The notes beneath the pieces were generated by a model that was not told the origin of the DNA, made no database searches, and worked only from the letters and a program-made list of their open reading frames with translations. A DNA stretch of 64,000 nucleotides, taken from assembly GCF_024298825.1 (NCBI RefSeq), contig NZ_CP101153.1, positions 2,170,001 through 2,234,000 on the forward strand, in the 5' to 3' direction. Below, in pieces: positions 1,152 to 19,474 of the stretch (position 1 is its first letter; the number at the start of each line of letters is the position of its first letter). A program made the translations under genes and the position numbers. The DNA is from Haloglomus salinum (GTDB lineage: Archaea; Halobacteriota; Halobacteria; Halobacteriales; Haloarculaceae).

Positions 1152-2066
1152 TCACCGCTCCAGCCACTCGATGACGGTCCCGAACCCCTGCGTCTCGAAG
1201 CCGCCCTCCCCGTCCGGCGTGAGGTGCCCCGTCTGCTCCTGCGGGCTCCCCTCGTCGGGGACCGCGACGCCGAAGAACTCGACCGCCTGGTCGCTGTCGA
1301 CGTAGTTGAGGACGTCCATCGTTTCCCTCGCCGTGCCGACGGTGAGGACATCCCCGAGCCGTTCGAGCAGCGCTTCGTCTCGGATGCCGGACGGGCCCAA
1401 CCGCTCCTTGGCCCGTTCGAGCAGTCTGCGGTCGCTCCCCGCCTCGCCGGGGTCGTAGTCGACCAGGTCGACCGCGGTGGGAACCACCGCGGCCGACACG
1501 AACTCCTCGGTGGCGTGTTTCACATCTTGAGCGTCGTACGCCAGATCCTGGTCGACACGCTCGAAGACCGTGTGCAGGTTCAGCAGGAAGATGACCCGGT
1601 CGGCCGTGTAGTAGTGGTGGAGCAGGACCGTCTCCCAGTCGTCGGGTCTCGTCGGCGCGTGTCCGCGCTCGAAGTCCGGCCTGACATCGTTCTCGTATCG
1701 CTCCCGAACCGTCTCCGGGTCGGGCGCCGCGCCGGACCGAATCCGGGCGAGTAGCGGCGCGTCGGGTGACGGGTGGCGCATCCCCCAGCCCCGCGCCGGC
1801 GGGCGAACGGCCGAGATGGTCGCTCCAGGACGGGCGAAGGAGTCGCCGCGCAGGTCGAACGACACGGCGTAGCCGTCGCTCCCGGCTGGCGGATACTCCC
1901 GGCGGGTGAACAGCTCCTCGACCGCCCGCTTGTAGGACTCGGTATCCCCGGTGACGGTGCTGGCGAGGCTGAGCCCGTCCTGTTTGTCGACGTGGCGGAG
2001 CAGTCCACCGAGGAAGGTCGATGTTCCGCCCGACGGGCCGCCGATGACGAGTGTGTCTCCTACCAT
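1152..2066 (-). CDS. GTPase-like protein with degenerate P-loop (putative pseudo-GTPase)
   Basis: A 304-residue paralogue of the protein at 13540-14460: both share the N-terminal P-loop region, the segments DDWET, LLHHYY, FLLNL and PTAVD/PIAVD, and the C-terminal block GGFE-QGF. Here the P-loop reads GGPSGGTST, with Thr15 where the paralogue has Lys17, and the paralogue's DLPG (DxxG, Walker B) is VRPP (residues 87-90). Both changes remove residues needed for nucleotide binding or hydrolysis in P-loop GTPases, so I infer an inactive regulatory partner. The start at 2066 places the P-loop near residue 9 as in the paralogue. It is the left end of the chaperone-like cluster. Confidence 0.75.
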   Translation of the reverse strand: MVGDTLVIGGPSGGTSTFLGGLLRHVDKQDGLSLASTVTGDTESYKRAVEELFTRREYPPAGSDGYAVSFDLRGDSFARPGATISAVRPPARGWGMRHPSPDAPLLARIRSGAAPDPETVRERYENDVRPDFERGHAPTRPDDWETVLLHHYYTADRVIFLLNLHTVFERVDQDLAYDAQDVKHATEEFVSAAVVPTAVDLVDYDPGEAGSDRRLLERAKERLGPSGIRDEALLERLGDVLTVGTARETMDVLNYVDSDQAVEFFGVAVPDEGSPQEQTGHLTPDGEGGFETQGFGTVIEWLER

Positions 2067-2785: not shown

Positions 2786-4009
2786 ATGGGGCTCGACATC
2801 AACGCGAGCACGAATCTGGACGAGATATTCGTGGGGCAGGGGACGACGGCGAACGGCTCGGTGAACTTCGAGATCACCGGCCGGACCCAGGAGTACCCGC
2901 TCCACATCGCCTTCTGTGTCGACACCAGCGGCTCGATGAGCCAGGAGGTCGACGCCACCGGGCTGACCGGTATCGTCAAGTCAGCGCTCTCCGACTCGGA
3001 CGGCCCGAGCAAGATGGACGTCGCGAAGGAGGGGCTGAAGAACGCCCTCGGCGAGCTCTCGCCCGACGACAGTTTCGGTATCGTCTCCTTCAGCAGCAGC
3101 GCCAGCACCGCGGTCAGTTCGACCAGCGGCAGCCGCGCTGGCGGGGTCGACTCCGACATCAACTCGATGAGCGCCGGCGGCGGCACCAGCATCGACGCCG
3201 GGCTGGACCGGTCCCGGGAGATGCTCAAGCGGATGCCCAGCGAGGAGGCCGTCGAGTGGATCGTGCTCATCTCCGACGGGAAGGGAAGCGTCCCGAGGGA
3301 CCGGGACCTGCAGCGCAACTACAGCGACGAGGGCATCGTCATCCAGGCGGCCGGCGTCGGTGACGCCTACGACCGCGACCAGATGCTGTCGCTCGCCCAG
3401 CAGACCCAGGGCGAACTCGAGGACATCGAGTCCCCGAAGAACCTGGGCCAGTTCTTCAAGCGGGAGGTACGCAACGCGAAGCAGGTCGTCGCACTCGACG
3501 CCGAACTGGAGCTCCACCCCTCCGACCTCACGACCATCAACGAGGTGTACTACTCGCTGGCCGAGCAGACCAGTACCGTCGACCCGGAGTGGCGTGGCGA
3601 CACCTGCGTCGTCGACCTCGGGGACGTGAACCACGAGAACCCGCCGGAGGTCGCCCTCGAGATGGATGTCGACGCCGAGGACGCGGACCCAGACCTGTCG
3701 GCGACGCTCGTCGAGGCCGTCCTCAGCACCCGCCGGGACAGCGCCCGCGACGAGATGACGACGACCGTCGACCTCTCGGGAATTGGTCCGGGTGGCGAAG
3801 ATGAAGAAAAAGAGGAAGAGGCAGCCAAGCCCACCCCACCGGACCCGGATTTCATCGTCAAGAAGGTCTCGACCCTCTCACAGGACGGGAAACTCGACGA
3901 GGCCCGTCGCTATCTCGAGGAGAACAAGCAGCACCTCCCGGAGCGGAAGTACCAGGAGGCGAAGGACCTGATCGACGACGGGGACGTTTCGGGACTGGGC
4001 AAGCTCTGA
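2786..4009 (+). CDS. von Willebrand factor type A domain protein with helical C-terminus
   Basis: A 407-residue vWA protein. The metal-binding MIDAS site is complete: DTSGS at residues 46-50, Thr134 in GGGTS and Asp164 in LISDG. It begins with a beta-rich leader (residues 1-40), continues through the vWA fold to about residue 230, then a beta domain to about 330, an acidic spacer of Glu/Lys and a C-terminal helical pair rich in KYQEAKDL-type residues. There is no signal peptide or membrane segment, so it acts in the cytosol. The start codon directly follows a GGGGAGG sequence. vWA proteins commonly pair with chaperone-like ATPases or GTPases; here the neighbours are Hsp70, J-like and GTPase-like genes. 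Confidence 0.88.
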   Translation: MGLDINASTNLDEIFVGQGTTANGSVNFEITGRTQEYPLHIAFCVDTSGSMSQEVDATGLTGIVKSALSDSDGPSKMDVAKEGLKNALGELSPDDSFGIVSFSSSASTAVSSTSGSRAGGVDSDINSMSAGGGTSIDAGLDRSREMLKRMPSEEAVEWIVLISDGKGSVPRDRDLQRNYSDEGIVIQAAGVGDAYDRDQMLSLAQQTQGELEDIESPKNLGQFFKREVRNAKQVVALDAELELHPSDLTTINEVYYSLAEQTSTVDPEWRGDTCVVDLGDVNHENPPEVALEMDVDAEDADPDLSATLVEAVLSTRRDSARDEMTTTVDLSGIGPGGEDEEKEEEAAKPTPPDPDFIVKKVSTLSQDGKLDEARRYLEENKQHLPERKYQEAKDLIDDGDVSGLGKL

Positions 4010-4015
4010 CCGGCC

Positions 4016-5578
4016 TCAGAGGACGCGGATGTTCGTTCCGGCCTCGGTGAAGTCGCCGTCGCTCTTCCGGGCGGTGATGCGCCGGTTCCCGACCTGATTC
4101 GAGAGCGTGATGTCTGCCTCGCCGCTGCCGTCGGTGGTCCACTCCGTGCCGGGCTGCATGCTCGAGACGATGGTTGCGTTCGACACGGCGCTTCCCGTGT
4201 TGTCGGTCACGCGGACGGTGACGGTGTCGCCAGGGTCGGGCAGCCCCTGCTGGAGCACGGAAATCTCCATCTCGCGGGTGAACTCCTCGATATCGACGTA
4301 CTCCGTGTCGCTCCCGTAGTCGACCTCGTCGGTCTGTTTCGACACCTCGATCTGGAGTCGCCCGTCGTCGTCGAGCGAGAGCGTCGCCTCGCCGTTGCTG
4401 TCGGTCTCCGTGTCGTGGCCCCAGTTCGTCGTGACCGACGCGCCCTCCAGGTCGTTCCCGGCGCCGTCGACGACGTGGACGGTGAGGTCTGCCCCCTCCA
4501 TCCGCTTGCCCTCGATGTCGGAGATGCGCAGGCTCCCATCCTTGCGGTCGACGTCGATGGTCACTTCGGCGTCCGGGTAGTGGCGATCCTCGTTCGGGGC
4601 CGATTTCGACGCCTCGACCGATAGCTCGCCGGCCGCGGTCAGTTCGAGGTCGACCTCGCCGGTCCCACCGGTCGTATCGCTCTCGCCGGCGATGGTGACC
4701 TCGGCGCCCTCGATGGGGCGACCGGACTGGGGCTCGTTCTTCTTGTTGACGTGGACGGTCACGGTCTCGCCAACCTCGTAGTCCGACCCCTCCACGAACA
4801 GCTCCATCTCGACGGTCTCCTCGCGGACCTTCAGGTCGGTCTCGCAGGGTTCGTAGGTCGCCGCGTCGTCGTCCGCCTTGGTGGCCTCGACGGTCCGGTC
4901 GCCGGTGCTACCGAACGCGTGGGTGACCGTCCCACCGTTCGTGGTTCCCAGTTCGGTCCCGCCGTCCGTCTCGACGGTCGCGTCGTCGGTCGGACTGCCC
5001 GCCGCCGTGACGGTGAACTGGACGTCCTCGTCGACCTCGACCTCGCTCGGGGCGCCGTCGAACGCCAGCGGCACCGTCTTCCGGTCGACCGTGACGACGG
5101 CTGTCGCGTCGTCGTAGGCGTCGGTGGTCGGCGCGGTGAACTGGACGGGTCCGTGGCTCCCGATGGTGAACGTCGCCTCGCCGCTACTCCCGTCCGTCTG
5201 GTCGGTGCCGAGTTCGGTCCCGTCGCGCCCGGCCTCGACCAGCGTCTCCACGGGGCCGCTGTCGCCCGTGACCGCGACGGTCAGCGGCTCGTCGACCGTC
5301 GGGTCGCTGGTCCGCACCTCGATGGAGATGGGTTCGTCGGCGGCCGGCGGCTCGTGGTTCTGCTCCAGCCACTTCCAGGCGGCCTCGATCTCCTCGATCG
5401 CGTTCGCACACCGCTTGAACTTCTCGTTGTCGTCGTCCTGGCGCGCCGTCCGCATCCGGCTCCGGTACTCCTTGATCAGGTCTTTCTTCTGCGACCTGAG
5501 GGCGGCCAGCGAGTCCATCCGGTCCCCCCCGATCTTCTCGTACGGGTCGTTACCGTTCAGTGGGTCGGCATCCCCCAT
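4016..5578 (-). CDS. J-like domain (no HPD) followed by about five Ig-like repeats
   Basis: A 520-residue acidic protein. Residues 10-76 match the N-terminal repeat of the neighbour at 5641-6384 and look like a J domain (NDPYEKIG, helix II ending KEYRSRM, helix III NAIEEIEAAWKWL). The HPD tripeptide that contacts Hsp70 in true J proteins is absent, replaced around RSR. From about residue 82 the protein is a string of beta-sandwich repeats with phrases such as PGDTVTVRV, NGEATLSL and GSGEADITL, typical of bacterial Ig-like (Big) domains. There is no signal peptide, which is odd for Ig-like repeats. A TATA-like box (5605-5612) lies about 26 bases before the start. It probably presents the Ig repeats to the Hsp70 set. 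Confidence 0.82.
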   Translation of the reverse strand: MGDADPLNGNDPYEKIGGDRMDSLAALRSQKKDLIKEYRSRMRTARQDDDNEKFKRCANAIEEIEAAWKWLEQNHEPPAADEPISIEVRTSDPTVDEPLTVAVTGDSGPVETLVEAGRDGTELGTDQTDGSSGEATFTIGSHGPVQFTAPTTDAYDDATAVVTVDRKTVPLAFDGAPSEVEVDEDVQFTVTAAGSPTDDATVETDGGTELGTTNGGTVTHAFGSTGDRTVEATKADDDAATYEPCETDLKVREETVEMELFVEGSDYEVGETVTVHVNKKNEPQSGRPIEGAEVTIAGESDTTGGTGEVDLELTAAGELSVEASKSAPNEDRHYPDAEVTIDVDRKDGSLRISDIEGKRMEGADLTVHVVDGAGNDLEGASVTTNWGHDTETDSNGEATLSLDDDGRLQIEVSKQTDEVDYGSDTEYVDIEEFTREMEISVLQQGLPDPGDTVTVRVTDNTGSAVSNATIVSSMQPGTEWTTDGSGEADITLSNQVGNRRITARKSDGDFTEAGTNIRVL

Positions 5579-5640: not shown

Positions 5641-6384
5641 TCACTCGCCGTCGGTCGTCCCGTCGCCCTCGATAGCGCGCCAGGCGTCGTCGACCGCAGC
5701 CGTCGCGCGCAGGGCCTGCCGGAAGCGCCATGGCTCGTCCGCGTACGTCTCGGGCGTCAGGCGGGCGGTGTACTCGACGACCAGTTCGTCCCGCCGCGCC
5801 GCGAGTTCCGCCTCGGACGCGTCACGAGACAGCCCGAGCAGTTCGTACGGGTCCGCCGCCGAGAGGGCCGGTCCGTCGCTCCCCGGGTCGGCCGCTCGGT
5901 CGCTGGTGCTCTCCTGCCCGGCCTCAGGTTCGCTGCGCTCGGCCAGCAGTCGCTCGGCCGCCCGCTCGATCTCCTCGATCCGGTTCGCCGCCGTTTTGAA
6001 CCCCTCGTTGTCGTCCTCGTGTCTCGCTTTCCGCATCCGATCGCGGTGCTCGTCCAGCAACCGGTCCCGGCGTGCCTCGATGGTTCCGGGGGCCGCATCC
6101 GCCGGCAGGTCGAGGGCCGCCGCCGCCTCGTTCGACGGTCCGTCCGTGTCGACGGGTTCGTGGTTCCCTTCCAGCCACTCCCAGGCCTGCTCGATTTCCC
6201 CGACTGCCTCCGCACTCTCTTTGAACGCCTCGTTGTCCCTGTCCTGCCGTACCTCGCGCATCCGGCTGCGGTACTCGGTGAGCAGCTCCTCCTTCTTCTT
6301 CCGGATGGCTTCGAGCGAGTCGTCGCGGGACACGCCCAGCACCTCGTAGGGTTCGTCCCCGGTGAGCGGGTCGGCGTCTGACAT
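5641..6384 (-). CDS. Protein with three degenerate J-like domains
   Basis: A 247-residue protein built of three repeats of one J-like unit at about residues 10-76, 88-150 and 177-240. The first reads DEPYEVLGVSRD with helix II LLTEYRSRM, the second has DEHRDRM, the third starts ADPYELLGLSRD and has VEYTARL. In a canonical J domain the residues after EY/EH would be HPD; none of the three has it. The length and helix spacing are otherwise J-like. The gene is divergent from the Hsp70 at 6500 with 115 bases between, so the two may share control. I infer an adaptor that docks on the neighbouring Hsp70s without stimulating ATP hydrolysis in the usual way. Confidence 0.82.
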   Translation of the reverse strand: MSDADPLTGDEPYEVLGVSRDDSLEAIRKKKEELLTEYRSRMREVRQDRDNEAFKESAEAVGEIEQAWEWLEGNHEPVDTDGPSNEAAAALDLPADAAPGTIEARRDRLLDEHRDRMRKARHEDDNEGFKTAANRIEEIERAAERLLAERSEPEAGQESTSDRAADPGSDGPALSAADPYELLGLSRDASEAELAARRDELVVEYTARLTPETYADEPWRFRQALRATAAVDDAWRAIEGDGTTDGE

Positions 6385-6499: not shown

Positions 6500-8050
6500 A
6501 TGCGAATCGGTATCGACCTGGGGACAGCGAACAGCGCGATGGCGTACCTCGACAGCGAGGCGGAGACGACGGAACTGATCCGGAACAATCTGGGAGACGA
6601 GTTCACGCCGTCGGCCGTGTTCGTCGTCCCCGAGGACGTGCCGGGCGAGCGAATCGCAGTCGGGGAGGCGGCACTCGCCCAGGGCCCGCAGTATCCCGAG
6701 CGGGTGCTCACCTATCCCATGGGAGATTTCGACAAGGAGGAGGTGACGTACTGGCTCGGAAACGAGGAGTTCACACCGACGCAGGTCGCGACGTACATCC
6801 TCGACTACCTGAAGCGGCAGGCCGAGCAATCACTCGACGAGACCATCGAGGGGGCGGTCATCACCGTTCCAGTCGAGTTCGGCGACAGGGCACGCAAGCG
6901 GACGGAGCGGGCGGCAGAGGCGGCAGGCTTCGAGGTCGACGAGATCATCGACGAGCCGACGGCGGCCTGTTTGTTGTACGGCCATCAAGAGGATGTCGAC
7001 GGGACGCTACTCGTGTACGACTTGGGCGGGCGGCGGTTCGACGCGACGCTGGTCGAGGTTGGGGCGTTCATCGATGTAATCGCCACGGAGGGCGACGGAG
7101 TACTCGGTGGGGAGGACCTCGACGACGCGCTGTACGAGCACGTCAGCGCGAAGCTCGTCGACGAGGGCGGCCCCGACCCCGCCGACGCCCACGAGATGGA
7201 CCAGGTCCTCCTCCGTGAGGAGGTTCAGGAGGCGAAAGAGGATCTCACGTATCTCGAACAGACGGCGTTCGTCTGGGAGAATACGGGGGTTGAGGTTTCC
7301 CGGAAGGAGTTCGAGTCGGTCATCGACGAGTACATCCAGCGGACCATCGACAGGACGGCCGCCCTGTTCGAGCGCGACGCCGTGCGGGACGAGGGCATCA
7401 CGAGAGACGACGTCGACCACGTCCTGCTGGTCGGTGGGAGTACGCGCATCCCGCTGGTCCAGAAGCGCGTCGAGGAGTTCTTCGAGCAGGAGCCACGGTT
7501 CGACATCGACCCGGATACTGTCGTCGCCCGAGGCGCGGCGCTCCAGGCCGCTGAGTATCGTGACGACTTCCACTCCGATCGATCCGGGCATGGGGATGCA
7601 GACCTCCTGGCGTACAACATCGGCATCGAGTCGCACGCCGGAACCTTCATCGAGATTCTCGAGACGGGGGCGAGACTCCCCGCGGAGGTGACCGAGACCT
7701 ACACGAACCCCGCCGACAACGCGACGGAGTTACCGATTCCACTCTGGGCGGAGGGCGAGGACGGTGAACCGGTCGACGAGGCCGGACGAGTGGGGGACAT
7801 CGTCCTCGAGGGGCTTCCGAAGCGGCCGGCCGGCGAACTCCGTCTCGAGGTGACGCTCACGGTCCAGCACGACGGTAGCCTGCACGTCGAGGCCGTCGAG
7901 ACGGGGACCGGAGCGACCGTCGAAGCGACCCTGGATATCGACGGTGACGACCCGTGGCCGGACATCGAGAACGAGGTGCCGGACCCCGATATCGAGGCCT
8001 TCGACCACTCTCGCCCCGGCTCCCGGGATGTGGATGCTTCCGACGGCTGA
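6500..8050 (+). CDS. Hsp70-like protein with altered ATPase motifs, lid-less
   Basis: A 516-residue Hsp70-family protein, shorter than DnaK (about 630) because the C-terminal helical lid is missing; the beta substrate-binding part is still visible (LEGLPKRPAGEL, LHVEAVE). The phosphate-1 motif is IGIDLGTANS, with Ala10 for the second Thr. The phosphate-2 motif is DLGGRRFD (residues 174-181) instead of DLGGGTFD, placing two Arg where Gly and Thr contact the phosphates. The adenosine motif LLVGGSTRIP is intact. I infer weak or no ATP hydrolysis. It lies 113 bases upstream of its closer-to-canonical sister on the same strand, and both have the same GGGGTA-TTTTATTC promoter. Confidence 0.9.
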   Translation: MRIGIDLGTANSAMAYLDSEAETTELIRNNLGDEFTPSAVFVVPEDVPGERIAVGEAALAQGPQYPERVLTYPMGDFDKEEVTYWLGNEEFTPTQVATYILDYLKRQAEQSLDETIEGAVITVPVEFGDRARKRTERAAEAAGFEVDEIIDEPTAACLLYGHQEDVDGTLLVYDLGGRRFDATLVEVGAFIDVIATEGDGVLGGEDLDDALYEHVSAKLVDEGGPDPADAHEMDQVLLREEVQEAKEDLTYLEQTAFVWENTGVEVSRKEFESVIDEYIQRTIDRTAALFERDAVRDEGITRDDVDHVLLVGGSTRIPLVQKRVEEFFEQEPRFDIDPDTVVARGAALQAAEYRDDFHSDRSGHGDADLLAYNIGIESHAGTFIEILETGARLPAEVTETYTNPADNATELPIPLWAEGEDGEPVDEAGRVGDIVLEGLPKRPAGELRLEVTLTVQHDGSLHVEAVETGTGATVEATLDIDGDDPWPDIENEVPDPDIEAFDHSRPGSRDVDASDG

Positions 8051-8163: not shown

Positions 8164-9744
8164 ATGCGGATAGGAATCGACCTGGGGACGACGAACAGCG
8201 CGATGGCGTACCTCGATGCCGAGGACGGGGGGACCGAAATGATTCAGAACGACCGGGCGGACGACACCACGCCGTCGGTCGTACTGATTGAGGAGGATGC
8301 CGACGAGGGGGACCAGATTACGGTCGGCGAGGCGGCACTCACCCGGCGCCGTATCAGCCCCGAGCGAGTCCTCGCTCGTACCAAGCAGGACATCGACAAG
8401 GAAGAGGAGGTGACGTACGAGATCGGTGGCGAGGAGTACACGCCCGTGCAGGCCGCGTCGTACATCCTGGGCTACCTGAAGGAACAGGCCGAGCAGTCGC
8501 TCGACGAGGAGGTCGAGGGGGCGGTCATCACCGTGCCGTACGACTTCGCGAACCGTGGTCGCCAGCGGACGGAGAAGGCCGCGGAGGCGGCGGGGTTCGA
8601 GGTCGACGAGATCATCAACGAGCCGACGGCCGCCTGTCTCTCCTACATCCACCAGGAGGATGTCGACGGGACGCTGCTCGTGTACGACCTGGGTGGTGGG
8701 ACGTTCGACGCGACACTGGTCGAGGCGGGAGCGCTCATCAACGTCGTCTCCACGGAGGGTGATGGTGAACTCGGTGGCGAGGACTTCGACGACGCGCTGT
8801 ACGAGCACGTGAGTCAGAAGATCGTCGACGAGGGTGGGCCCGACCCGGCGGACGCCCACGAACAGGAACAGGCTTCTCTCCAGAAGGAGGTCAAGGACGC
8901 GAAGCACGACCTCTCGGACCTCAACAACACGATGTTCGTCTGGGACGGGACCGAGGTGGAGGTGACTCGCGAGGAGTTCGAGTCGGTCATCGACGACAAG
9001 ATACAGCAGACCATCGAGAAGATGGATGCGCTGTTCCAGAAGGACGCCGTGCAGGACGAGGGAATCGACAAGGGCGACATCGACAACGTCCTGCTGGTCG
9101 GCGGGAGCACGCGCATCCCGCTGGTCAGCGAGCGTGTCGAGGCGTTCTTCGAGCAGGAACCGAAGTACAACGTCGACCCGGACACGGTGGTCGCCCGGGG
9201 CGCGGCGCTCCAGGCCGCGGAGTACCGTGAGGAGGTCCCCGACGACATGACGGTGGACGTCACCATCCACAACGTCCTCTCGCACAACGTCGGCGTCGAG
9301 CTGGACGACGACACCTTCGACGAGATCCTCCCCGAGGACGTGAACGTCCCGACGGACGAGACGCGGACGTACACGAACCCGCGGGACAACATCTCGAAGA
9401 TCCGGGTCCCGGTCTGGGAGAAGGCCGAGGACGGGGCGCCGGTCGAGCAGCCCGACGACGCCGAGGAACTCGGCGAACTCATGCTCGAGGGGATTCCCGA
9501 GCGGCCGGCCGGCGAACTCGACATCGAGGTGACGTTCGACGCGGGCCACGACGGCACCCTGCACGTCGAGGCCGTCGAACTGGAGACCGGAACGACCGTC
9601 GAGACGACGCTCGAGATCGGCATCGACGACCCGTTCCCACCGAGTACGGGCGACGGTGACCAGGACGACACCATCCCCCGTCCCGGTGACGAGTTCGACG
9701 CCTCCCGTCCCGGCGCGCAGGACGAGGAAGCCGCCGACGACTGA
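8164..9744 (+). CDS. Hsp70-like chaperone with intact nucleotide motifs, lid-less
   Basis: A 526-residue Hsp70 paralogue, clearly a duplication partner of 6500-8050. The ATPase motifs are canonical: IGIDLGTTNS, VYDLGGGTFD (Asp175, Gly177-179, Thr180) and LLVGGSTRIP. After the linker the beta domain is present (SHNVGVEL, LEGIPERPAGEL) but the alpha lid is replaced by a short acidic tail rich in Asp. This is therefore the likely working ATPase of the cluster. It is not the housekeeping DnaK, which normally sits with grpE and dnaJ. The ATG at 8164 lies about 26 bases after a TATA-like box, and a run of five T at 9762-9766 follows the stop. Confidence 0.92.
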   Translation: MRIGIDLGTTNSAMAYLDAEDGGTEMIQNDRADDTTPSVVLIEEDADEGDQITVGEAALTRRRISPERVLARTKQDIDKEEEVTYEIGGEEYTPVQAASYILGYLKEQAEQSLDEEVEGAVITVPYDFANRGRQRTEKAAEAAGFEVDEIINEPTAACLSYIHQEDVDGTLLVYDLGGGTFDATLVEAGALINVVSTEGDGELGGEDFDDALYEHVSQKIVDEGGPDPADAHEQEQASLQKEVKDAKHDLSDLNNTMFVWDGTEVEVTREEFESVIDDKIQQTIEKMDALFQKDAVQDEGIDKGDIDNVLLVGGSTRIPLVSERVEAFFEQEPKYNVDPDTVVARGAALQAAEYREEVPDDMTVDVTIHNVLSHNVGVELDDDTFDEILPEDVNVPTDETRTYTNPRDNISKIRVPVWEKAEDGAPVEQPDDAEELGELMLEGIPERPAGELDIEVTFDAGHDGTLHVEAVELETGTTVETTLEIGIDDPFPPSTGDGDQDDTIPRPGDEFDASRPGAQDEEAADD

Positions 9745-9853: not shown

Positions 9854-9860
9854 GAATTAA
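9854..9860 (+). promoter_or_regulatory. TATA-like box of the Hsp70-GrpE-like gene
   Basis: GAATTAA lies 25 bases before the ATG at 9886, so this third gene can be made separately from the two Hsp70s. Confidence 0.45.
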
Positions 9861-9885
9861 GTGCGTCCCCGCCCGTTCCACAGCC

Positions 9886-12333
9886 ATGACCGATTCATCC
9901 CGCGGGGGGCCGCGGCCACTGGGTGTGGACCTGGGGAGTGCGACGACGACCGGCGCCGTCGTCGAGGCGGGGACACCACGGCTGCTGGAGGTCGACGGGC
10001 AGTCGGCCCTGCCGACGAGATTCGCGGTCACGACGGAGGCGGGCATCGTCGTCGGCACGGATGCGACGACGGCCGAGAGGGACGGGATGACGCCGCTCCC
10101 GTACCTCGGCGACGGCCCGACCGACGCGACGCCGGACGACCTGCCGCTGCCGGTGTTCCTGGGAGAACTCCGACGCACCTGGGTAGACGCCCTGGCGGAC
10201 GGCCGCCCGGTGACCGACGGCGGCGAGGACCGGGACGGTGGCATCGACGATATCGAGGGCGTCGAACGGGTCGACACCGACGAGACGGCCGACGCCGAGG
10301 ACGAGTCGGACGCGGACGCTACCGATGCCGACGCTGCCGACGACACCGATACCGACGCTGCCGACGCGTCCGAGGCGGACCGCGACGCGGACGCCGACGA
10401 GGGAACGGCGGTGAAGGCCCGGACGGACGCCGAGGCGACGGACGAGGCCGGCGATGGGGCGGACGCCGAACCTGCGACCGAGACGGAGACCGACGCGGCC
10501 GATGCGGAGACCGGCGCGGGCACCGGGGGCGCCGACGAGTCGGGCACCGAGGAGTCCGCGGACGCTGCCACGGACCGCTCCGACGCGGACGCTGCTCCGA
10601 CCGCCGACACCGATGCCGGGGCCGGCACGGACGAGGGCAGGGCCGAACCCGCCACCGAGGACGACACCGGGACGCCGTCGCCCGGCGCCTTCGGCCCGAC
10701 CACGATAACGGTCCCGGGCCCCTACGCCGCGTCGGACCTCGCGGCCGTCGAGTCGGCCGCCGAGGCCGCCGGCTTCGGCGACCCGCTGGCGGTCCGGGCC
10801 CCGGTGGCCGTCGCGGCGACGGAACTCCCCGACTGCGAGGACGAGCGGACCGTCGCGGTCGCCGACATCGGCGCCTCCTGGGGGTCGTTCGCGGTCGTCA
10901 CGGTGCGGCCCGACGGCGACCTGTCGGTGGCCGCGCGGACCTCGCTGACCGACCACGGCCGCGAGACGCTCGACGAGACGCTGGCGACCTGGCTGGTCGA
11001 CCGTGTCGGCCGCGACCACGGCGTCACGTTCCGGCTCGACGACGACGCCCGGGCCCGGGTTCGGGCGGCCGCACACGACGCCCTCGACACGGTCGCGAGC
11101 GGCGACGACGGGGCCGCGACCATCGACCTGGAGCTCTCGGAGGGCGTCGAGGTGGTCGAGGGTGGCGTGTTCGATGCGGACGCGCTGTCGCCCACTATCG
11201 AGCTGACGATGGACGACTGCTTCGACGCGCTTGCCGACCACCTCCGGGCGATACAGGGGGCTATCGAGGACCTGCTGGGGGCCGCCGCCGTCGACGACAT
11301 CGACACGCTGCTCCTGACCGGCGACGGGACCCGGCCGGCACCGGTGCTGTTCGCCGTCGAGAACGCGTTCGACCGGCGGTCACAGCCCCCGACCGAGGGC
11401 GACCGGTACACGGCTGCGTCGGTCGGCGCCGCGCTGCTCGCGTCGGCCCGGGCGGAGGGCGGTGAATCCGTCGTCGACGAGACGTACGACCGGGACGTGG
11501 AACTCCACGCACTCGGCGAGTCCGGCCCCGAGGCGCGCCGCCTGGACGCGCCCGGGACCGGCCCGGGCAGGCCATGTCGGGCGGAGCTCGCTCCGGCCGC
11601 GGAGACGCAGCTCTCCGGCGCCTTCGAGCTCCAGTTCCGTCACCGCATCACCGGCGAGCGCGAGCACGCCGGGACGTACGTCTGCTCCGGCCTCCCGAGC
11701 GGGGCCGACGAGGGGCGGCTGACCGTCTCCTTCGACGCACCGGCCGCCCGACTCGACGCCGCGAACGCCGGCGATGCCGTGACTGTCGAGCCGGTCGCGG
11801 ACGAGGCCGCACCCGAAGCGGACGCGAGCGCGACCGACGGCGGCGCCGTGCCCGACCGGGCTGGCGAGTTCACGTTCGCCCGTGACGACGAGGCCGGCGC
11901 GCCCTGGCTGGCCCACGCGGATATCGACCGAGCGGCTCTTCCCGCCTCCGAGCGCGGCGGCGACGACGGGCAGTCCGGACTCGATGCCCGCTCGGACACC
12001 GAGCGTGCCCTCGCGACCGTCGACGAGGAGTCCGTGGCCCGCGCGGCCTGGAAACTCCGCAACAAGCTCTGGAAGCAGGGCGTCCGGAAGGGCGACGGGA
12101 TTCCAGGCGACGACCTCCAGCTCCTGTTCCGGGAACTCGACCAGAACCTCTCGATGGCGTCCGTCGAGATCATCGAACCGGAGCTCGGCTCGACACTGGA
12201 CGACCGGCGCCACTGGGTCGTCGAGGCCCGGGAGACGGACGAGCCCACGGAGACGATTCTGGAGGTCAACTCGCTGGGCGTCGCCGTCGACGGTAACGTG
12301 CTCGAACAGGCCGAGGTCACCGTCGCGAAGTGA
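9886..12333 (+). CDS. Degenerate Hsp70-like protein with acidic insert and GrpE-like C-terminus
   Basis: An 815-residue protein. The actin-like core shows worn Hsp70 motifs: LGVDLGSATTTG at the phosphate-1 position, VADIGASWGSF at phosphate-2 and LLLTGDGTRP at the adenosine site. Residues about 112-268 are a low-complexity acidic insert of Asp, Ala, Thr and Glu. The last 100 residues look like GrpE: a helical pair ending LLFRELDQNLS and then a beta domain (about 759-815) with IIEPELG, DDRRHW, ILEVNSLG and LEQAEVTVA at the places where GrpE has DP-E-G, DP-HEA, V-EV-GY and LRPA-V-VA. GrpE is the nucleotide exchange factor of DnaK. The gene follows the two Hsp70s on the same strand with its own TATA-like box. 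Confidence 0.8.
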   Translation: MTDSSRGGPRPLGVDLGSATTTGAVVEAGTPRLLEVDGQSALPTRFAVTTEAGIVVGTDATTAERDGMTPLPYLGDGPTDATPDDLPLPVFLGELRRTWVDALADGRPVTDGGEDRDGGIDDIEGVERVDTDETADAEDESDADATDADAADDTDTDAADASEADRDADADEGTAVKARTDAEATDEAGDGADAEPATETETDAADAETGAGTGGADESGTEESADAATDRSDADAAPTADTDAGAGTDEGRAEPATEDDTGTPSPGAFGPTTITVPGPYAASDLAAVESAAEAAGFGDPLAVRAPVAVAATELPDCEDERTVAVADIGASWGSFAVVTVRPDGDLSVAARTSLTDHGRETLDETLATWLVDRVGRDHGVTFRLDDDARARVRAAAHDALDTVASGDDGAATIDLELSEGVEVVEGGVFDADALSPTIELTMDDCFDALADHLRAIQGAIEDLLGAAAVDDIDTLLLTGDGTRPAPVLFAVENAFDRRSQPPTEGDRYTAASVGAALLASARAEGGESVVDETYDRDVELHALGESGPEARRLDAPGTGPGRPCRAELAPAAETQLSGAFELQFRHRITGEREHAGTYVCSGLPSGADEGRLTVSFDAPAARLDAANAGDAVTVEPVADEAAPEADASATDGGAVPDRAGEFTFARDDEAGAPWLAHADIDRAALPASERGGDDGQSGLDARSDTERALATVDEESVARAAWKLRNKLWKQGVRKGDGIPGDDLQLLFRELDQNLSMASVEIIEPELGSTLDDRRHWVVEARETDEPTETILEVNSLGVAVDGNVLEQAEVTVAK

Positions 12334-12349: not shown

Positions 12350-13555
12350 CTAACGGGGTCCGCTCTCCCCGGCTCCGGTTCCGCTCCCGGTGGCCTCCTC
12401 GTACGCGACCGTCGACCGGGTCCTGTCGATGCGGCGGACGGCCTCGCGGGCGACCTCCTCGCTCCGCGCGTCGAGTTCGGCGCGCAGGTTCTGCCGCAGC
12501 TCCGTCAGCAGTTCCTCGGTCACCTGCTCCCAGATGTGCTCGCGTCTGGTCGCCAGCTTCTCGTCGATGGCCGCGGCGACCTCCGGGTCGATATCGCTGA
12601 ACTCGTGCGGATTGAGGAGTTCGAACTCCTCCTTCTCGTCGCCACCGCCGACGAGGTTCTGTACGCGCCCGGCGATGCCCCCGCTGTCATCCTCCTGTTC
12701 GTCCCGCAGCCGCCCCTTCTCGATGTCCTCCATGAGCTTCGCCGCTTCGAGCGGGTACCGATCGAACGCCCGCTCGGTCTCTTTCCGGACTGCCGCGAAC
12801 TCCTCGGCCACGGCGTCCTCCAGCTGGTCGGTGTCCCGGACCAGCGCCCGGTCGAGCCGTCGCCGCGAGCGTAGTTCGTCGCGGTAGGTCGGGAGCGCGT
12901 CGATGGTGAGGGCGTTCCGCTCGGCGAGGTGCTGGACGGTCCGGACCAGTCGACGGTCCGGCTCGACCTGCTGTTGCTCTGCCTCCTCGCCGATGACATC
13001 GAAGTAGTCGGTCGGCTTTCGCTCGACCGAGATGAAGCTCAGTTCCGCGAGCGCGCCCCGCACGTTCCCAGCGAACTGGTCGAACTGCTGCAGCGGGGCC
13101 CGACACTGCACGGAGTCGCGCCGGTACTCCTCCCATAGCTGGGCGACGAACCTCGGGTCGATGTCGCCGGGGGCGCTGAAGCCGCTATCACGGCGTTCGA
13201 TCTTGAATGTCTTCTCCGCTTCCGGTTCGGCTTCGTACGCATCGACCCGGCACTCCTCCAGCAACCGGGCGAGCCTCGGCAGGGGAATCTGGGCCGCCTC
13301 CTCCAGCGGCATCACGAACAGGTCGAAGTAGCCCATGCTCCCTTTGGTTCCCTCGCTCCGGCTGTCCTCGAATCCGAAGACGAAGGCGTCGCTGAACCCC
13401 TTGAAGAATCCGCCGTTCTTGCGTGTGAGGGCTGAATCGGCCGCGAACAACAGTTCCCGGAGCTGGTCGTCGTCGATCGGTAGTTTCGCGCCGCGCTGGT
13501 GCGAGAACGTGTCATAAACGGCGTGGTTGAGTGTCAAGGTCACTGTTCCAGCCAT
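12350..13555 (-). CDS. Uncharacterised helical protein coupled to the GTPase
   Basis: A 401-residue protein of no recognised family. The first 150 residues are mixed alpha/beta (NHAVYDTF, GYFDLFVMP); from about residue 215 onward it is highly charged and helical, with stretches such as EEFAAVRKETERAF and WEQVTEELLTELRQNL that suggest coiled coil. The Walker or zinc motifs I looked for are absent. Its start codon overlaps the last 16 bases of the GTPase gene at 13540-14460, so the two are translated together and are probably made in fixed ratio. A GTPase effector or scaffold is the simplest reading, unproven. The C-terminus ends in a flexible Gly/Ser tail. Confidence 0.75.
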   Translation of the reverse strand: MAGTVTLTLNHAVYDTFSHQRGAKLPIDDDQLRELLFAADSALTRKNGGFFKGFSDAFVFGFEDSRSEGTKGSMGYFDLFVMPLEEAAQIPLPRLARLLEECRVDAYEAEPEAEKTFKIERRDSGFSAPGDIDPRFVAQLWEEYRRDSVQCRAPLQQFDQFAGNVRGALAELSFISVERKPTDYFDVIGEEAEQQQVEPDRRLVRTVQHLAERNALTIDALPTYRDELRSRRRLDRALVRDTDQLEDAVAEEFAAVRKETERAFDRYPLEAAKLMEDIEKGRLRDEQEDDSGGIAGRVQNLVGGGDEKEEFELLNPHEFSDIDPEVAAAIDEKLATRREHIWEQVTEELLTELRQNLRAELDARSEEVAREAVRRIDRTRSTVAYEEATGSGTGAGESGPR

Positions 13556-14460
13556 CGAATCACCTCCTCGAATCCCTGGACCTCGAAACCACCCTGTCCA
13601 TCGTCGGTGAGGTCGCCAGTGTAGTTCGCCGGTGCACCGTTGTCCGGGACGGAGACGGCGAAGAAGTCGATCTCTCCGTTCGCCTCGACGTAGTTGAGGA
13701 TCTCCTTTGCCTTCCTTGCAGAGCCGAGGCTGAGGTGCTTGTTCAGGTGCTCGAGCAGCTCCCGGTCCCGCACACTCGGTGTGATAAACTGGTTCAGAAT
13801 CCCCTCCACGATACCGGTCTTGTGGGAATCGGGGTCGTACCCGTACCAGTCGACCGCGATGGGAACGACCGCGACGTCGGTGAACTCCTCGTTGGCGTGC
13901 TCGATCGCATCCTTCCCGTACACCAGTTCCTTGTCGTCGAGTTCGGCCACCTTGTAGAGGTTCAGCAGGAAGATGGCCTTGTTCGAGTTGTAGTAGTGGT
14001 GGAGGAACGTGGTCTCCCAGTCGTCGGGCGTGTTCGGCGAGATGCCGCGCTCGAAGTCCGGCTTGAGGTTGTTCTCGTAGTCGGTTCTGATGTCCTCCGG
14101 GTCGGCCGTCTGTCCCCGGTTGATCCGCTGGATGAGTGACAGGCCGCCCTTCTGCTGCAGGATCTCTCGCTGACTCTCGCCCGGCAGGTCGATGATGTTC
14201 ACGGTGGTCCCGGGTCGGCTGAACGACTTCCCCTCCAGCTCGTACTCGGCGATGTAGCCGTCGGTCGTCTGGTTCGGGTACTCCCCGACGGTGAACATCT
14301 GGTCGATGACCTCGCTCTCGTAGTCGTCGGTGTTGCCGACCACGGTGCTGTTGATGACGAATCCGTTCGCCTTGTCGACGTGGTGGAGCAACCCGCCCGC
14401 GAACGTCGACTTCGCCCCGCTCTGCCCCGCGATAAGCATCACGCTGTTCCCTTCGTTCAT
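13540..14460 (-). CDS. GTPase-like P-loop protein (active-site residues kept)
   Basis: A 306-residue P-loop protein. The loop reads AGQSGAKST with Lys17, followed by a DxxG motif DLPGE at residues 91-95 and a strand VVPIAVD that could play the base-recognition role, although a clean NKxD is not seen. The segment FLLNLYK and the C-terminal block GGFEVQGF are shared with the pseudo-GTPase at 1152-2066. It is slightly less acidic than its neighbours and richer in Asn and Lys, which could mark a different origin. A TATA-like stretch at 14529-14536 and a 10-base palindrome at 14494-14503 lie upstream. It heads a two-gene unit with 12350-13555. Confidence 0.8.
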   Translation of the reverse strand: MNEGNSVMLIAGQSGAKSTFAGGLLHHVDKANGFVINSTVVGNTDDYESEVIDQMFTVGEYPNQTTDGYIAEYELEGKSFSRPGTTVNIIDLPGESQREILQQKGGLSLIQRINRGQTADPEDIRTDYENNLKPDFERGISPNTPDDWETTFLHHYYNSNKAIFLLNLYKVAELDDKELVYGKDAIEHANEEFTDVAVVPIAVDWYGYDPDSHKTGIVEGILNQFITPSVRDRELLEHLNKHLSLGSARKAKEILNYVEANGEIDFFAVSVPDNGAPANYTGDLTDDGQGGFEVQGFEEVIRWLEQ

Positions 14461-14577: not shown

Positions 14578-15219
14578 TCAGGGAAGCGACTTCAGGTACT
14601 GGATGAGCGCCCCGCCAGCCAGTCGCGTCGGTTCGAGGAACACGGCGAGCCCACGGGCCCCCAGGGAGTCGTCCTGTGTCTTCTCCAGCTCCGCCAGCAG
14701 GATGTTCCGGTAGCCGTAGAGGATCGCGGTCAGCAGGAGTATCGCGATCAGGAAGTACGGCTGGCCGAGCGCGAGGAAGCCGGCCAGGCAGTAGGCGACC
14801 CCGAACAGGTACACCTCGTGGCCGAAGCCGGTCAGGATACCGATGAACAGGGTGTTCGACGGGTTGTTGAACCGGTAGTAGAGGAACCCACCGCCGACCA
14901 CCATCCCCAGGTAGAGGCCGTTCATCAGGAGGTCCGTCGTGGTGATGAACGGCGGTGGGAGCAGTAGTGCGACGCCGACGGCCAGGCTCAACACCGCGTA
15001 GGCGTAGTTCCCGACCTGACTGTTGGCCTGCCACAGCGAGACGAGCAGCACGCCGAGGAACAGGAAGCCGATGCTGTACTGGAACCCGAAGACGAAATCC
15101 GGGAAGCCGAACGTCTGACGGTCGACGAGGAACCGGAACCCGATCGACGAGATGGCCAGCAGTACCCCCCCGCCGATGAGGAATCCCAGGTTCTCCTTCT
15201 CGTACCTTGAGAGCCCCAT
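14578..15219 (-). CDS. Polytopic membrane protein of unknown function
   Basis: A 213-residue protein with about six membrane segments; loops hold FGFPDFVFGFQY and YYRFNNPSNTLFIG. It starts MGLSRYEKENLGF, chosen over an in-frame start seven codons upstream because a TATA-like element (15245-15252) lies 26 bases before this ATG. No family was recognised. The C-terminal 45 residues are more polar (LAELEKTQDD, FLEPTRLAGG) and probably cytosolic. It is the nearest gene downstream in the divergent sense of the GTPase operon (117 bases from its start) and belongs by position to the cluster. Confidence 0.75.
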   Translation of the reverse strand: MGLSRYEKENLGFLIGGGVLLAISSIGFRFLVDRQTFGFPDFVFGFQYSIGFLFLGVLLVSLWQANSQVGNYAYAVLSLAVGVALLLPPPFITTTDLLMNGLYLGMVVGGGFLYYRFNNPSNTLFIGILTGFGHEVYLFGVAYCLAGFLALGQPYFLIAILLLTAILYGYRNILLAELEKTQDDSLGARGLAVFLEPTRLAGGALIQYLKSLP

Positions 15220-15317
15220 TCGATAACACGTCGCGGGCACGCGGTAATCAATCCACCGTCGACCGGCCGCCCGCCCGCGGTCCCGGGGCGGCCGCAGTGA
15301 CCGTTATCGGTTCGCGG

Positions 15318-16445: not shown

Positions 16446-17345
16446 ATGCGGGACTACCGGCTCCTGCTCGTGGCCGCCCTCGTGCTGACTGCGGGGTGCA
16501 CCGGTGGCTCCATCACTGGGGGGGACGCGACAATCTCCGACCGGGTCGACGGGGACTGTGACGACCGTCACAGCGAACTCGACCTCCGCCTGTCCCTCTC
16601 GTACACCGACCACGCCGACCTGTTCTCCGAGACGGACGCGGTCGTCCTGGTCGAGTACACGGACGGGGGGCAGTGGTCACGGGCGACGCGCATCGGTGAT
16701 GCACCCAGCGGGGGTATCGAACGGACGATCTCGCTCACGGGGTCGGACTTCGGCGGCGTGGAGGGCCCGGTCCGACTGCGGGTCAGCGTACTCGACGACG
16801 ACCTCATCAACAACCAGGACCTGGGGTCGGTTCCGGTCGGCGAGGTGGCCGTCGAGCCACAGCGGAAGGACCGCGGCACGCTCTCGGCGGGCTTCGACTG
16901 GCGTGGGGACCTCCGGCGGAACACCTCCGTCACCTTCGTGGCCGGGGACCGGTCGGACTCGGACTGCCCCGTCGTCTCCTACGACTGGGACTTCGACGCC
17001 GACGGGACCGCCGAGCGGGAGGGGCGGACGGTCACGTACCGGTTCCAGTCCGACGGATATCACACGGTCACGCTGACGGTCGCCGACAGTCGCGGCCGGG
17101 AGGCCAGTGTCGAGCGCGAGGTGCTCGTCGTGTTCGACCCAGACGGTGACGGCGTGACCAGCGCCATCGAGCGCGCCCGCGGCTCCGACCCCCGCGACCC
17201 TGACACGGACGACGACCTCTTCCACGACGGTATCGACCCGGCCCCCACGTCGCTTCTCGTTCCGACCGGGCTCATTCAGGGCGTGCTGTTCGCGCTGTTG
17301 TTCGGCGCGTTCCTGTACAGCACCCGTGACTCCTTGCCACCATAG
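16446..17345 (+). CDS. Lipoprotein with PKD domain, calcium-type repeat and C-terminal anchor
   Basis: A 299-residue exported protein. The N-terminus is a short signal peptide with lipobox LTAGC (Cys18). A PKD domain covers about residues 165-235 (VVSYDWDFDADG, GYHTVTLTV). It is followed by a single thrombospondin-3-like acidic repeat (DPDGDG...DTDDD), then PTGLIQG and a membrane segment before the end SLPP. The same repeat and C-terminal anchor occur in the convergent neighbour 17360-19474. An ATTTTTGT element at 16413-16420 lies 26 bases before the ATG. Likely an extracellular, calcium-stabilised surface protein of the cluster; partner unknown. Confidence 0.82.
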   Translation: MRDYRLLLVAALVLTAGCTGGSITGGDATISDRVDGDCDDRHSELDLRLSLSYTDHADLFSETDAVVLVEYTDGGQWSRATRIGDAPSGGIERTISLTGSDFGGVEGPVRLRVSVLDDDLINNQDLGSVPVGEVAVEPQRKDRGTLSAGFDWRGDLRRNTSVTFVAGDRSDSDCPVVSYDWDFDADGTAEREGRTVTYRFQSDGYHTVTLTVADSRGREASVEREVLVVFDPDGDGVTSAIERARGSDPRDPDTDDDLFHDGIDPAPTSLLVPTGLIQGVLFALLFGAFLYSTRDSLPP

Positions 17346-17359
17346 GATGTCAAACCGTC

Positions 17360-19474
17360 CTAGGGTGTCAGCGGGTCCCTGAGCACCAGTACCGCCAGCA
17401 GCCCCGTCAGCAGCACCTGGATTCCGCCGAGCGGGAACCAGGCGATGTTCGGTAGCGGGTCCATCCCGTCGGCGAACAGGTCGCCGTCCGTGTCCGAGGC
17501 CCTCGGGTCGAGGCCCCGTTCCATCTCGGGGCCGTCCTCGACCCCGTCGCCGTCCGTGTCGGCGACCAGCGGGTCCGTCTCGGCATCGACCTCCTGGCCG
17601 TCCTGGAGGCCGTCGCCGTCCGTGTCGGCGACGGTCGGGTCGGTGCCGAGTTCGAGTTCGCGTGGGTCGTCGAGGCCGTCGCCGTCGGTGTCCACGGCGG
17701 TCGGGTCGGTGCCGAGTTCGAGTTCGCGTGGGTCGTCGAGGCCGTCGCCGTCGGTGTCCACGGCGGTCGGGTCGGTGCCCAACTCGACCTCGCGGCCATC
17801 GTCGAGGCCGTCGCCGTCGGTGTCCGGAACGCGCGGCCCTGTGTCCGTCTCCAGTTCCTGGCCGTCCTGGAGGCCGTCGTCGTCGGTGTCGGGGTCGGTG
17901 GGGTCCGCGTCGAACTCGAGTTCGCGGGGGTCCGCCAGGCCGTCGTCGTCGGTGTCGGTGTCGGCCGGGTCGGTGCCGAGTTCGAGTTCGCGGGGGTCGC
18001 CGAGGCCGTCGCCATCCGTATCCACCGTGGTCGGGTCACTCCCGTGGTCCTCGACCTCGGGACCGTCCAGCAGTCCGTCGCCGTCCGTGTCCGGGTCGAG
18101 GGGGTTCGTCCCGAGGGCCACTTCCCGACCGTCGGTGAGGCCGTCGTCGTCCGTATCGCGTACCAGCGGGTCGGTGTCGAACTCGGTCACCTCGCGTCCG
18201 TCGTCGAGGCCGTCCTCGTCGGTGTCCTCGTCGGTCGGGTCGGTGTCGAGTTCGAAGTACTCGCGGCCGTCGTCCAGTCCGTCGCCGTCGGTGTCGGGGT
18301 CGGTCGGGTCGGTGCCGACGTCCTCGACCTCTCGACGGTCCTCCAGCCCGTCACCGTCGGTGTCGGGGTCGGTCGGGTCGGTTCCGAGACGCTCGATCTC
18401 TCGGCCGTCCCGAAATCCGTCCCCATCGGTGTCCGGGGCGAGGGGGTCGGTGTCGAATTCGGTCACCTCGCGTCCGTCGGGTAGTCCGTCGTCGTCGGTG
18501 TCTGCGACCGTCGGATCGGTACCGATATCTCTCTCTCTCAGGTCATCGAGTCCATCGTCATCCGTGTCCTCGTCGAGTGGGTCCGTCCCCAGGGCCACCT
18601 CTTTCCCGTCGATGAGGCCGTCACCATCCGTATCCGTGGTCGTCGGGTCCGTCCCGTACTCGTCCACCTCCGGTCCGTCCAGCAGTCCATCGTCGTCCGT
18701 ATCGGGGTCGTCGAGGTCGGTCCCTGTCGCGTTCTCCTCCTGATTCAACAGGCCATCGCTATCCGAGTCGACCCGGATGGGGATGTTCCTGGTCGTGCTG
18801 TTCGACCCGCCGTGCGAGTCGACTACGGTCAGCGATACCTTCGTCTCCCCCTGCTCCTCGAAGACGTGGGTGATTCGCTGTCCGCGCTTCTCGGGGGTGC
18901 CGTCGTCGTCCAGGTCCCACTTGTACTTCTGGATACTATCGCGGAGGTCACCGGGGTCCGACGCGGACCCGTCCAGCGTCACGTTCGAACCTGCGCTCGG
19001 CTCGGAGGGAGAAACACTGAACCCCGCCACCGGTGCTGTATTGGCGAAGACCGTCTGGTACGTGGTATCCGTGTGCCCGTCCTCGGTGGTGACGGTCAGC
19101 ACGATCTCGTGAGCGCCACTAGTCTCGAAGGTTTTCGATACGGTCACCCCGAGAGCATCCGTGGTGCCGTCCTTGTCGAAATCCCACTCGTACGATTCGA
19201 TCTCGTCGTTACACTCCTGCTCCGAATTCACACGGTTCGAACATGCCGCGGAGCTACTCGCGTCGAACGTGACTTCCTCGCCCACCATCGGGTCGGTAGG
19301 CTCGGTGACCACGCTGGCATCCGGTTCGTTATCAGCCGTAGCGCCCGCCGCGAGGCCCTGCGCAGGTGGCACCGTGATGCTGAGGAGTAGGACGAGAACT
19401 GAGACCAGGACGACGGCCCGCCTTGAATATCGAACACGGTCTGATATCTGCCGAGAGTTGCTGGTGATTCCCAT
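17360..19474 (-). CDS. Surface protein with two PKD domains and about 20 thrombospondin-3-like repeats
   Basis: A 704-residue exported protein. Residues 19-41 form a signal anchor. Two PKD domains follow (YEWDFDKDG at about 87 and YKWDLDDDG at about 185). From about residue 240 to 680 there are about 20 copies of a 22-residue acidic repeat of the type DTDGDGLDDGRE-x-GTDP, which in other proteins binds calcium. The C-terminus (GGIQVLLTGL, ending RDPLTP) resembles the end of the convergent lipoprotein 16446-17345. Two copies at 17641-17706 and 17707-17772 are essentially identical in DNA. A TATA-like box (19501-19510) lies 27 bases before the start. In salty, Ca/Mg-rich medium such a rod would project from the cell. 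Confidence 0.88.
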   Translation of the reverse strand: MGITSNSRQISDRVRYSRRAVVLVSVLVLLLSITVPPAQGLAAGATADNEPDASVVTEPTDPMVGEEVTFDASSSAACSNRVNSEQECNDEIESYEWDFDKDGTTDALGVTVSKTFETSGAHEIVLTVTTEDGHTDTTYQTVFANTAPVAGFSVSPSEPSAGSNVTLDGSASDPGDLRDSIQKYKWDLDDDGTPEKRGQRITHVFEEQGETKVSLTVVDSHGGSNSTTRNIPIRVDSDSDGLLNQEENATGTDLDDPDTDDDGLLDGPEVDEYGTDPTTTDTDGDGLIDGKEVALGTDPLDEDTDDDGLDDLRERDIGTDPTVADTDDDGLPDGREVTEFDTDPLAPDTDGDGFRDGREIERLGTDPTDPDTDGDGLEDRREVEDVGTDPTDPDTDGDGLDDGREYFELDTDPTDEDTDEDGLDDGREVTEFDTDPLVRDTDDDGLTDGREVALGTNPLDPDTDGDGLLDGPEVEDHGSDPTTVDTDGDGLGDPRELELGTDPADTDTDDDGLADPRELEFDADPTDPDTDDDGLQDGQELETDTGPRVPDTDGDGLDDGREVELGTDPTAVDTDGDGLDDPRELELGTDPTAVDTDGDGLDDPRELELGTDPTVADTDGDGLQDGQEVDAETDPLVADTDGDGVEDGPEMERGLDPRASDTDGDLFADGMDPLPNIAWFPLGGIQVLLTGLLAVLVLRDPLTP
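17641..17772. repeat. Two nearly identical 66-base tandem repeats inside the calcium-repeat gene
   Basis: Each copy codes for one 22-residue repeat with GLDDPRELELGTDP. DNA identity far above that of the other repeats points to recent duplication. Confidence 0.85.

Follow-up and report, generated by a model that had tools for sequence, protein, structure and literature searches.

The gene at positions 9886 to 12333 of the 64,000-nucleotide stretch of the Haloglomus salinum genome examined here (the window) raises the question of what might be done by a protein that carries a degenerate Hsp70 and a GrpE domain in one chain and is encoded beside an Hsp70 with intact ATPase motifs. Bacteria have been described with a single type of exchange factor, the separate GrpE protein, and eukaryotes made Hsp110 from Hsp70 (PMC4753570); the family discussed below unites the GrpE and the Hsp70-derived solutions in one chain. 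An earlier note on this DNA had read the gene as such a fusion, with an Hsp70-like core of dead motifs beside a live Hsp70, and the Pfam, BLAST and profile comparisons agree in bearing that reading out. Taken as a whole, the interpretation in the note is supported in part, since its suggestion that the protein could recharge the active Hsp70 at 8164 is still a proposal.

Domain make-up of the fusion protein

The fusion gene and the two Hsp70 genes upstream of it are laid out as follows (L numbers are our handles for loci in other genomes).

6500..8050, + strand: second lid-less Hsp70, 516 aa; recent sister of the gene at 8164, degenerate (DLGGRRFD, K70 lost) and probably a second pseudo-ATPase
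8164..9744, + strand: lid-less partner Hsp70 (526 aa) with intact ATPase motifs and a shortened subdomain-IIB hairpin
9886..12333, + strand: pseudo-Hsp70/GrpE fusion gene, 815 aa (Pfam and BLAST; orthologues L003, L076, L077, L078, L117)
9886..10215, + strand: N lobe of the Hsp70-like NBD, residues 1-110; phosphate-1 motif GVDLGSATT, no K70 equivalent
10216..10683, + strand: acidic low-complexity insert, residues 111-266 (156 residues, 37% D+E), inside the NBD and before the EKAVITVP-type strand
10684..11475, + strand: remainder of the Hsp70-like NBD, residues 267-530; catalytic motifs lost (Pfam and alignment)
11476..11805, + strand: degenerate SBD-beta, residues 531-640 (alignment and profile match to the DnaK SBD), with no SBD-alpha lid after it
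11998..12159, + strand: helical pair of the GrpE four-helix bundle, residues 705-758; D743 lies at the E. coli G122 position
12160..12330, + strand: GrpE beta-wing, residues 759-815, with the invariant H776 and P765

Pfam assigns residues 273-521 to HSP70 (E 3.2e-11; 42.6 bits against a cut-off of 20.6) and residues 744-815 to GrpE (28.4 bits over profile positions 94-165 of 165; the curated cut-off is 25.8). When the whole protein is compared by BLAST with 96 genomes of the family, two sets of matches appear, residues 272-620 resembling canonical DnaK and residues ~697-814 canonical GrpE, the latter with 35% identity over 118 residues to the canonical haloarchaeal protein (best E 2.6e-11). 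The host genome (4.19 Mb, a single contig) also encodes a separate canonical GrpE (131.8 bits). The public NCBI name of the Hsp70-GrpE fusion proteins, "nucleotide exchange factor GrpE", hides this architecture. The sequence AATTAAG at 9855-9861, about 25-30 nt 5' of the fusion ATG, lies where the TATA box of a haloarchaeal leaderless transcript is expected, and the fusion gene may have its own promoter.

Both the NBD and the SBD-beta of Hsp70/DnaK (PF00012) are recognizable along the chain, and a family profile matches DnaK structures at 1e-30 over 505 positions. The differences from Hsp70/DnaK are an acidic insert in the NBD, a GrpE domain in place of the SBD-alpha lid (SBD-beta is followed by a linker and then by the GrpE head), and the loss of the ATPase motifs; the first two of these, the insert and the missing lid, are absent from the earlier note, and the third had been noticed there as a wearing of the Hsp70 motifs. 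When the protein is aligned with the partner Hsp70s and canonical DnaK, K70 falls in a gap, and GIDLGTTNS is replaced by GVDLGSATT, NEPTA by RAPVA, DLGGGTFDV by DIGASWGSF, DLGGDDWD by DHGRETLD and LVGGSTRMP by LTGDGTRPA, with neither LGG nor K270 present; the departures from the Hsp70 ATPase concern its phosphate, K70, E171, LGG and adenosine motifs. The loss of these sites extends to the orthologues, in some of which it goes further (SIRLDTDRA in L117), and the partner Hsp70s retain intact motifs. From these substitutions we infer that the Hsp70-like body has given up both the binding and the hydrolysis of ATP. The gene is under constraint: relative to the orthologue in H. halophilum, dN/dS is 0.28-0.31 in the C part of the NBD, the SBD and the GrpE parts, and 0.58 in the acidic insert, the fastest-evolving part of the protein.

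The features by which the C-terminus had originally been likened to GrpE (an acidic-Pro pair, DDRRH, ILEV and LEQAEVTVA, with a helical pair before them) are all present, and the profile search against GrpE that had been proposed as a check now gives, besides the Pfam match, GrpE structures in the PDB and a profile alignment; the refuting outcome named in the note, a profile search without a GrpE match, did not arise. A profile of the six heads of the family aligns with five canonical haloarchaeal GrpEs with an hhalign probability of 99.2% (E 3.3e-19, 101 columns), and its top two matches in the PDB are both GrpE, 4ani (3.1e-4) and 1dkg (4.9e-4); with the independent fusions described below included, GrpE structures are reached at 3.9e-10 and 1.8e-8. 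A phmmer search of the PDB with the single GrpE head gave no match, the GrpE structures being reached by profiles only. The curated Pfam cut-off is also passed by L076, L077 and L078, and L117 lies below it at 16.7 bits.

Like GrpE (PF01025), the head has the helical pair and the beta-wing with its invariant DPxxH histidine, which is retained in 29/29 haloarchaeal rows of the GrpE alignment. It differs from GrpE in being attached C-terminally to an Hsp70-like body, in lacking the N-terminal stalk helix (the Pfam match begins at profile position 94/165, and the alignment with canonical proteins at the bundle helices) and in carrying D743 at the position of E. coli G122, which is D or N in 6/6 heads of the family and G in 12/12 canonical haloarchaeal GrpEs. 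The beta-wing acts as a wedge that opens the cleft of the DnaK NBD (PMC4753570); it is the main DnaK contact, its histidine touches DnaK in the M. tuberculosis complex, and the stalk helix takes part in binding DnaK and in releasing substrate (PMC10803776). The functional E. coli complex has a further contact, between the DnaK hairpin 276-302 and residues 94-106 and 117-129 of the GrpE bundle; G122D, at this site, abolishes exchange activity, and deletion of DnaK 285-295 weakens GrpE binding (PMC10825016). The corresponding NBD hairpin segment has 29-34 residues in the partner lid-less Hsp70s as against 39 in canonical DnaK. With D or N in the heads and a shortened hairpin in the partners, both proteins of the pair are changed at the bundle-hairpin contact, and these two changes, together with the missing stalk helix, cast doubt on a classical GrpE contact. 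On these alignments, either the pair has been rewired or the head would be inactive. The loss of the glycine and the shortening of the hairpin are not perfectly linked, since the kinase-type fusions described below also lack the glycine, yet have a hairpin of full length.

Pairing with a lid-less Hsp70 and the surrounding module

Orthologues of the fusion were found in H. halophilum (88% identity to the window protein) and in four further haloarchaeal genomes sampled (L076, 625 aa; L077, 733 aa; L078, 726 aa; L117, 634 aa), identity outside Haloglomus being 23-30%. When a family profile was searched against 391 class members, the members included in the profile scored 784-1062 bits, L117 (outside the profile) 187, and all others at most 131, these last being DnaK proteins plus the stand-alone head L075; as three candidates were scored per genome, the family count is a lower bound. 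An additional locus, L118, is a decayed copy of the module: its Hsp70 and vWA genes are broken into pieces, and its fusion gene has lost the GrpE end.

Wherever the locus is intact, the fusion gene comes immediately after a lid-less Hsp70 gene on the same strand, with a gap of 141 nt in the window, 21 in L076, 54 in L077, 54 in L078 and 77 in L117. The pseudo-Hsp70s form one clade of the Hsp70 tree (100/99) and the partner Hsp70s another (99/96), the latter with the branching ((L117,(window)),(L076,(L077,L078))). The tree of the GrpE heads likewise places the window with L117 (95/90) and L077 with L078; the joining of window and L117 in both trees agrees with a co-inherited pair.

A larger module is common to the window, H. 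halophilum, L077, L078 and L117. The exception is L076 (genome ~47% GC), in which the Hsp70 and fusion genes stand by themselves, with unrelated flanks. The shared content comprises a vWA protein, one or more J-like proteins fused to Ig-like/carboxypeptidase-regulatory-like repeats, the Hsp70, the fusion, a P-loop GTPase and a novel partner protein, and L117 additionally shares with the window three membrane proteins, one of them with a zinc ribbon. In the window the other members are:

1152..2066, - strand: second GTPase, paralogue of 13540-14460
2786..4009, + strand: von Willebrand factor A protein, module member
4016..5578, - strand: J-like domain with Ig-like/CarboxypepD_reg repeats, no HPD
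5641..6384, - strand: J-like protein with three J-like repeats, no HPD
12350..13555, - strand: novel partner protein without a match in Pfam or the PDB; start codon inferred by comparison with the orthologue in L003
13540..14460, - strand: P-loop GTPase-like protein, below the Pfam DO-GTPase1 cut-off
14578..15240, - strand: module membrane protein, homologue in L117
15318..15848, - strand: module membrane protein, homologue in L117
15767..16330, - strand: membrane protein with C-terminal zinc ribbon, homologue in L117

The family of the novel partner protein occurs in 5/391 genomes, all of them with the fusion module, one as the decayed copy. The J-like proteins lack HPD, so that ATP hydrolysis by the partner Hsp70 may lack its usual stimulation; some relatives, in L081 and L082, retain PD only. 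The genes next to a lid-less Hsp70 and J-like/Ig proteins in these two loci include an ordinary GrpE as a gene of its own, and this suggests that the fusion takes the place of such a GrpE. The module is flanked by PKD and acidic-repeat proteins of surface type (16446-17345 and 17360-19474), and similar ones lie near it in L077 and L078; they may belong to it, and their repeats could inflate the likeness. A J-domain protein of 351 aa is encoded elsewhere in the window (57549-58604; Pfam DnaJ 2.3e-20). PADLOC recognized no known defense system, its one weak match, at chance level, being to the Hsp70, and no relatives were found in the viral contigs searched.

Among known systems close to the module are the bacterial GTPase-centric systems of Kaur et al. 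2020 (PMC7159879), which include an HSP70, GrpE, an FNIII protein fused to DnaJ and another HSP70 that lacks its peptide-binding domain. The module and these DO-GTPase/GAP1-N2 systems have in common GTPases, vWA, membrane and zinc-ribbon parts, GrpE, a J-like domain on beta-sandwich repeats and an Hsp70 that is missing a domain; the combination of HSP70, GrpE and DnaJ fused to beta-sandwich repeats is thus present in the module, with J-like domains that lack HPD. The bacterial systems are described mainly in actinobacteria and firmicutes and have a separate GrpE, whereas the module is haloarchaeal and carries its GrpE on a pseudo-Hsp70. The module GTPase scores 12.7 bits against Pfam DO-GTPase (cut-off 27; E 0.08), 0/4 module genomes exceed the cut-off, and the partner protein at 12350-13555 has no Pfam match, GAP1 included. 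We have not assigned the module to the DO-GTPase systems, since its GTPases fall below the Pfam cut-off; by its gene content it looks like a haloarchaeal counterpart of them.

Possible roles of the fusion protein

The reading that we favor, with a probability of roughly 0.5, is that the fusion protein is a subunit devoted to nucleotide exchange and scaffolding for the lid-less Hsp70 encoded directly upstream. The Hsp70-like body, without ATP binding or splitting, would provide a rigid, Hsp70-shaped scaffold for the bundle helices and beta-wing of the GrpE head, which would dock on the NBD of the partner, open it and release ADP. A small private Hsp70 cycle might in this way run apart from the housekeeping DnaK and GrpE, and its clients may be components of the vWA/GTPase/membrane module. 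We favor such a subunit because the homology to GrpE is found by Pfam, BLAST, PDB profile and hhalign alike, because the ATPase motifs are lost in all members of the family and kept in all partners, and because the pairing is strict and the partner and head trees agree in placing the window with L117. The filling of the GrpE slot (as judged from L081 and L082), the independent haloarchaeal fusions and the invariance of the wing histidine argue in the same direction. The exchange role is weakened by the D or N at the G122 position (6/6), the short partner hairpin and the missing stalk helix, and the J-like proteins without HPD also count against the reading.

The logic would be that of Hsp110/Sse1, a relative of Hsp70 turned exchange factor, but with a GrpE wing. 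Hsp110/Grp170 (Sse1) likewise presents a divergent Hsp70 relative beside a live Hsp70, with a long acidic insertion and an exchange role of the kind proposed here. Hsp110, however, retains ATP binding and uses its NBD and alpha-helix bundle, whereas the fusion has a GrpE wing and has lost the ATP motifs, and the comparison is one of analogy and not of membership. Sse1 requires ATP binding (PMC4753570), the motifs for which are lost from the fusion NBD, and the apparent loss counts against the reading favored here.

A more specific form of the dedicated-subunit reading, which we hold tentatively and lean somewhat against, is that the protein represents a new type of exchange factor, a dead Hsp70 whose lid has been replaced by a GrpE head and which forms a private pair with the lid-less Hsp70, both sides having dropped the bundle-hairpin contact and become insulated from the housekeeping DnaK and GrpE. 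Changed on both sides at the G122/hairpin contact, the two proteins are a candidate for a natural orthogonal pair of Hsp70 and exchange factor, with which it can be tested which GrpE contact drives exchange.

The same substitutions can be read as signs that neither the Hsp70 body nor the GrpE head is active and that the chain is a scaffold or holdase tying together the lid-less Hsp70, the J-like proteins and the GTPase proteins, with no exchange. The lost ATPase motifs, the D or N that recalls the inactive E. coli mutant, the absence of a stalk helix and the abundance of worn chaperone parts in the module (J-like domains without HPD, a degenerate second Hsp70) would all fit such a protein. We regard it as unlikely, though as the most serious of the alternatives, since the beta-wing is still recognizable and constrained after long divergence (dN/dS about 0.3), and since partner Hsp70s with intact ATPase motifs would find an exchange factor useful.

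The conservation of the wing also makes it improbable that the GrpE part is a mere device for dimerizing the pseudo-Hsp70 through the helix bundle: GrpE does dimerize partly by way of its four-helix bundle (PMC4753570), and the helices are retained, but the best-conserved part of the head is the wing, which dimerization does not need. Slightly more doubtful still is an action of the head on the housekeeping DnaK, by which DnaK would be recruited to the module. Canonical DnaK keeps the full 39-residue hairpin, and the wing is the principal contact with DnaK (PMC10803776), but the change at the G122 position is one that inactivates E. coli GrpE on DnaK, the invariant neighbor of the fusion is the lid-less Hsp70 and not DnaK, and a canonical GrpE is already encoded in the genome. 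Although long spurious frames arise in GC-rich haloarchaeal DNA and the module copy L118 is broken, a decaying gene or an annotation artefact is refuted by full-length orthologues in several genera with their domain matches in one frame each and by dN/dS below 0.5 (0.58 in the acidic insert).

Independent Hsp70-GrpE fusions in haloarchaea

The fusion protein is a variant of known families, of a kind that has recurred in evolution. Halocatena plasmids encode Hsp70-GrpE proteins of about 635-655 aa (HSP70 5e-97 to 6e-92, GrpE 1e-22 to 1e-21), in which the GrpE part consists of a helix bundle and wing, the Hsp70 motifs are largely recognizable and E171 and the phosphate-2 motif are altered (L034:7704-9671, 655 aa; L035:7775-9682, 635 aa). 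Chains of about 1040-1220 aa in which a Ser/Thr protein kinase is added to Hsp70 and GrpE occur in Halomicrobium (e.g. WP_012807418.1) and in two other haloarchaeal genomes:

L036:2994-6476, L037:3010-6138, L074:5598-9251 and L080:4294-7773: Hsp70-GrpE-kinase triple fusions

In the GrpE tree all heads of the window type fall into one clade (100/98), which also takes in one stand-alone relative. The AU test rejects both a clade that unites all Hsp70-GrpE fusions (p 5.7e-6) and one of the window-type and kinase-type fusions (p 2.2e-4), in each case with the caveat of long branches, and the first of these rejections argues for separate origins. Two further candidates, L038 and L042, proved to be ordinary GrpE genes with over-long frames. 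Among 5.39 million open-access papers we found no description of a GrpE fused to an Hsp70. The repeated and independent joining of the two in haloarchaea, sometimes with a protein kinase, means that an exchange factor can be held on its chaperone.

At L075:7042-8112, in a genome of ~46% GC, a window-type GrpE domain (43 bits) shares a chain with the FlaD/E domain of the archaellum (Arch_fla_DE, 75.7 bits), and the gene adjoins FlaI/FlaJ/FlaH-like genes.
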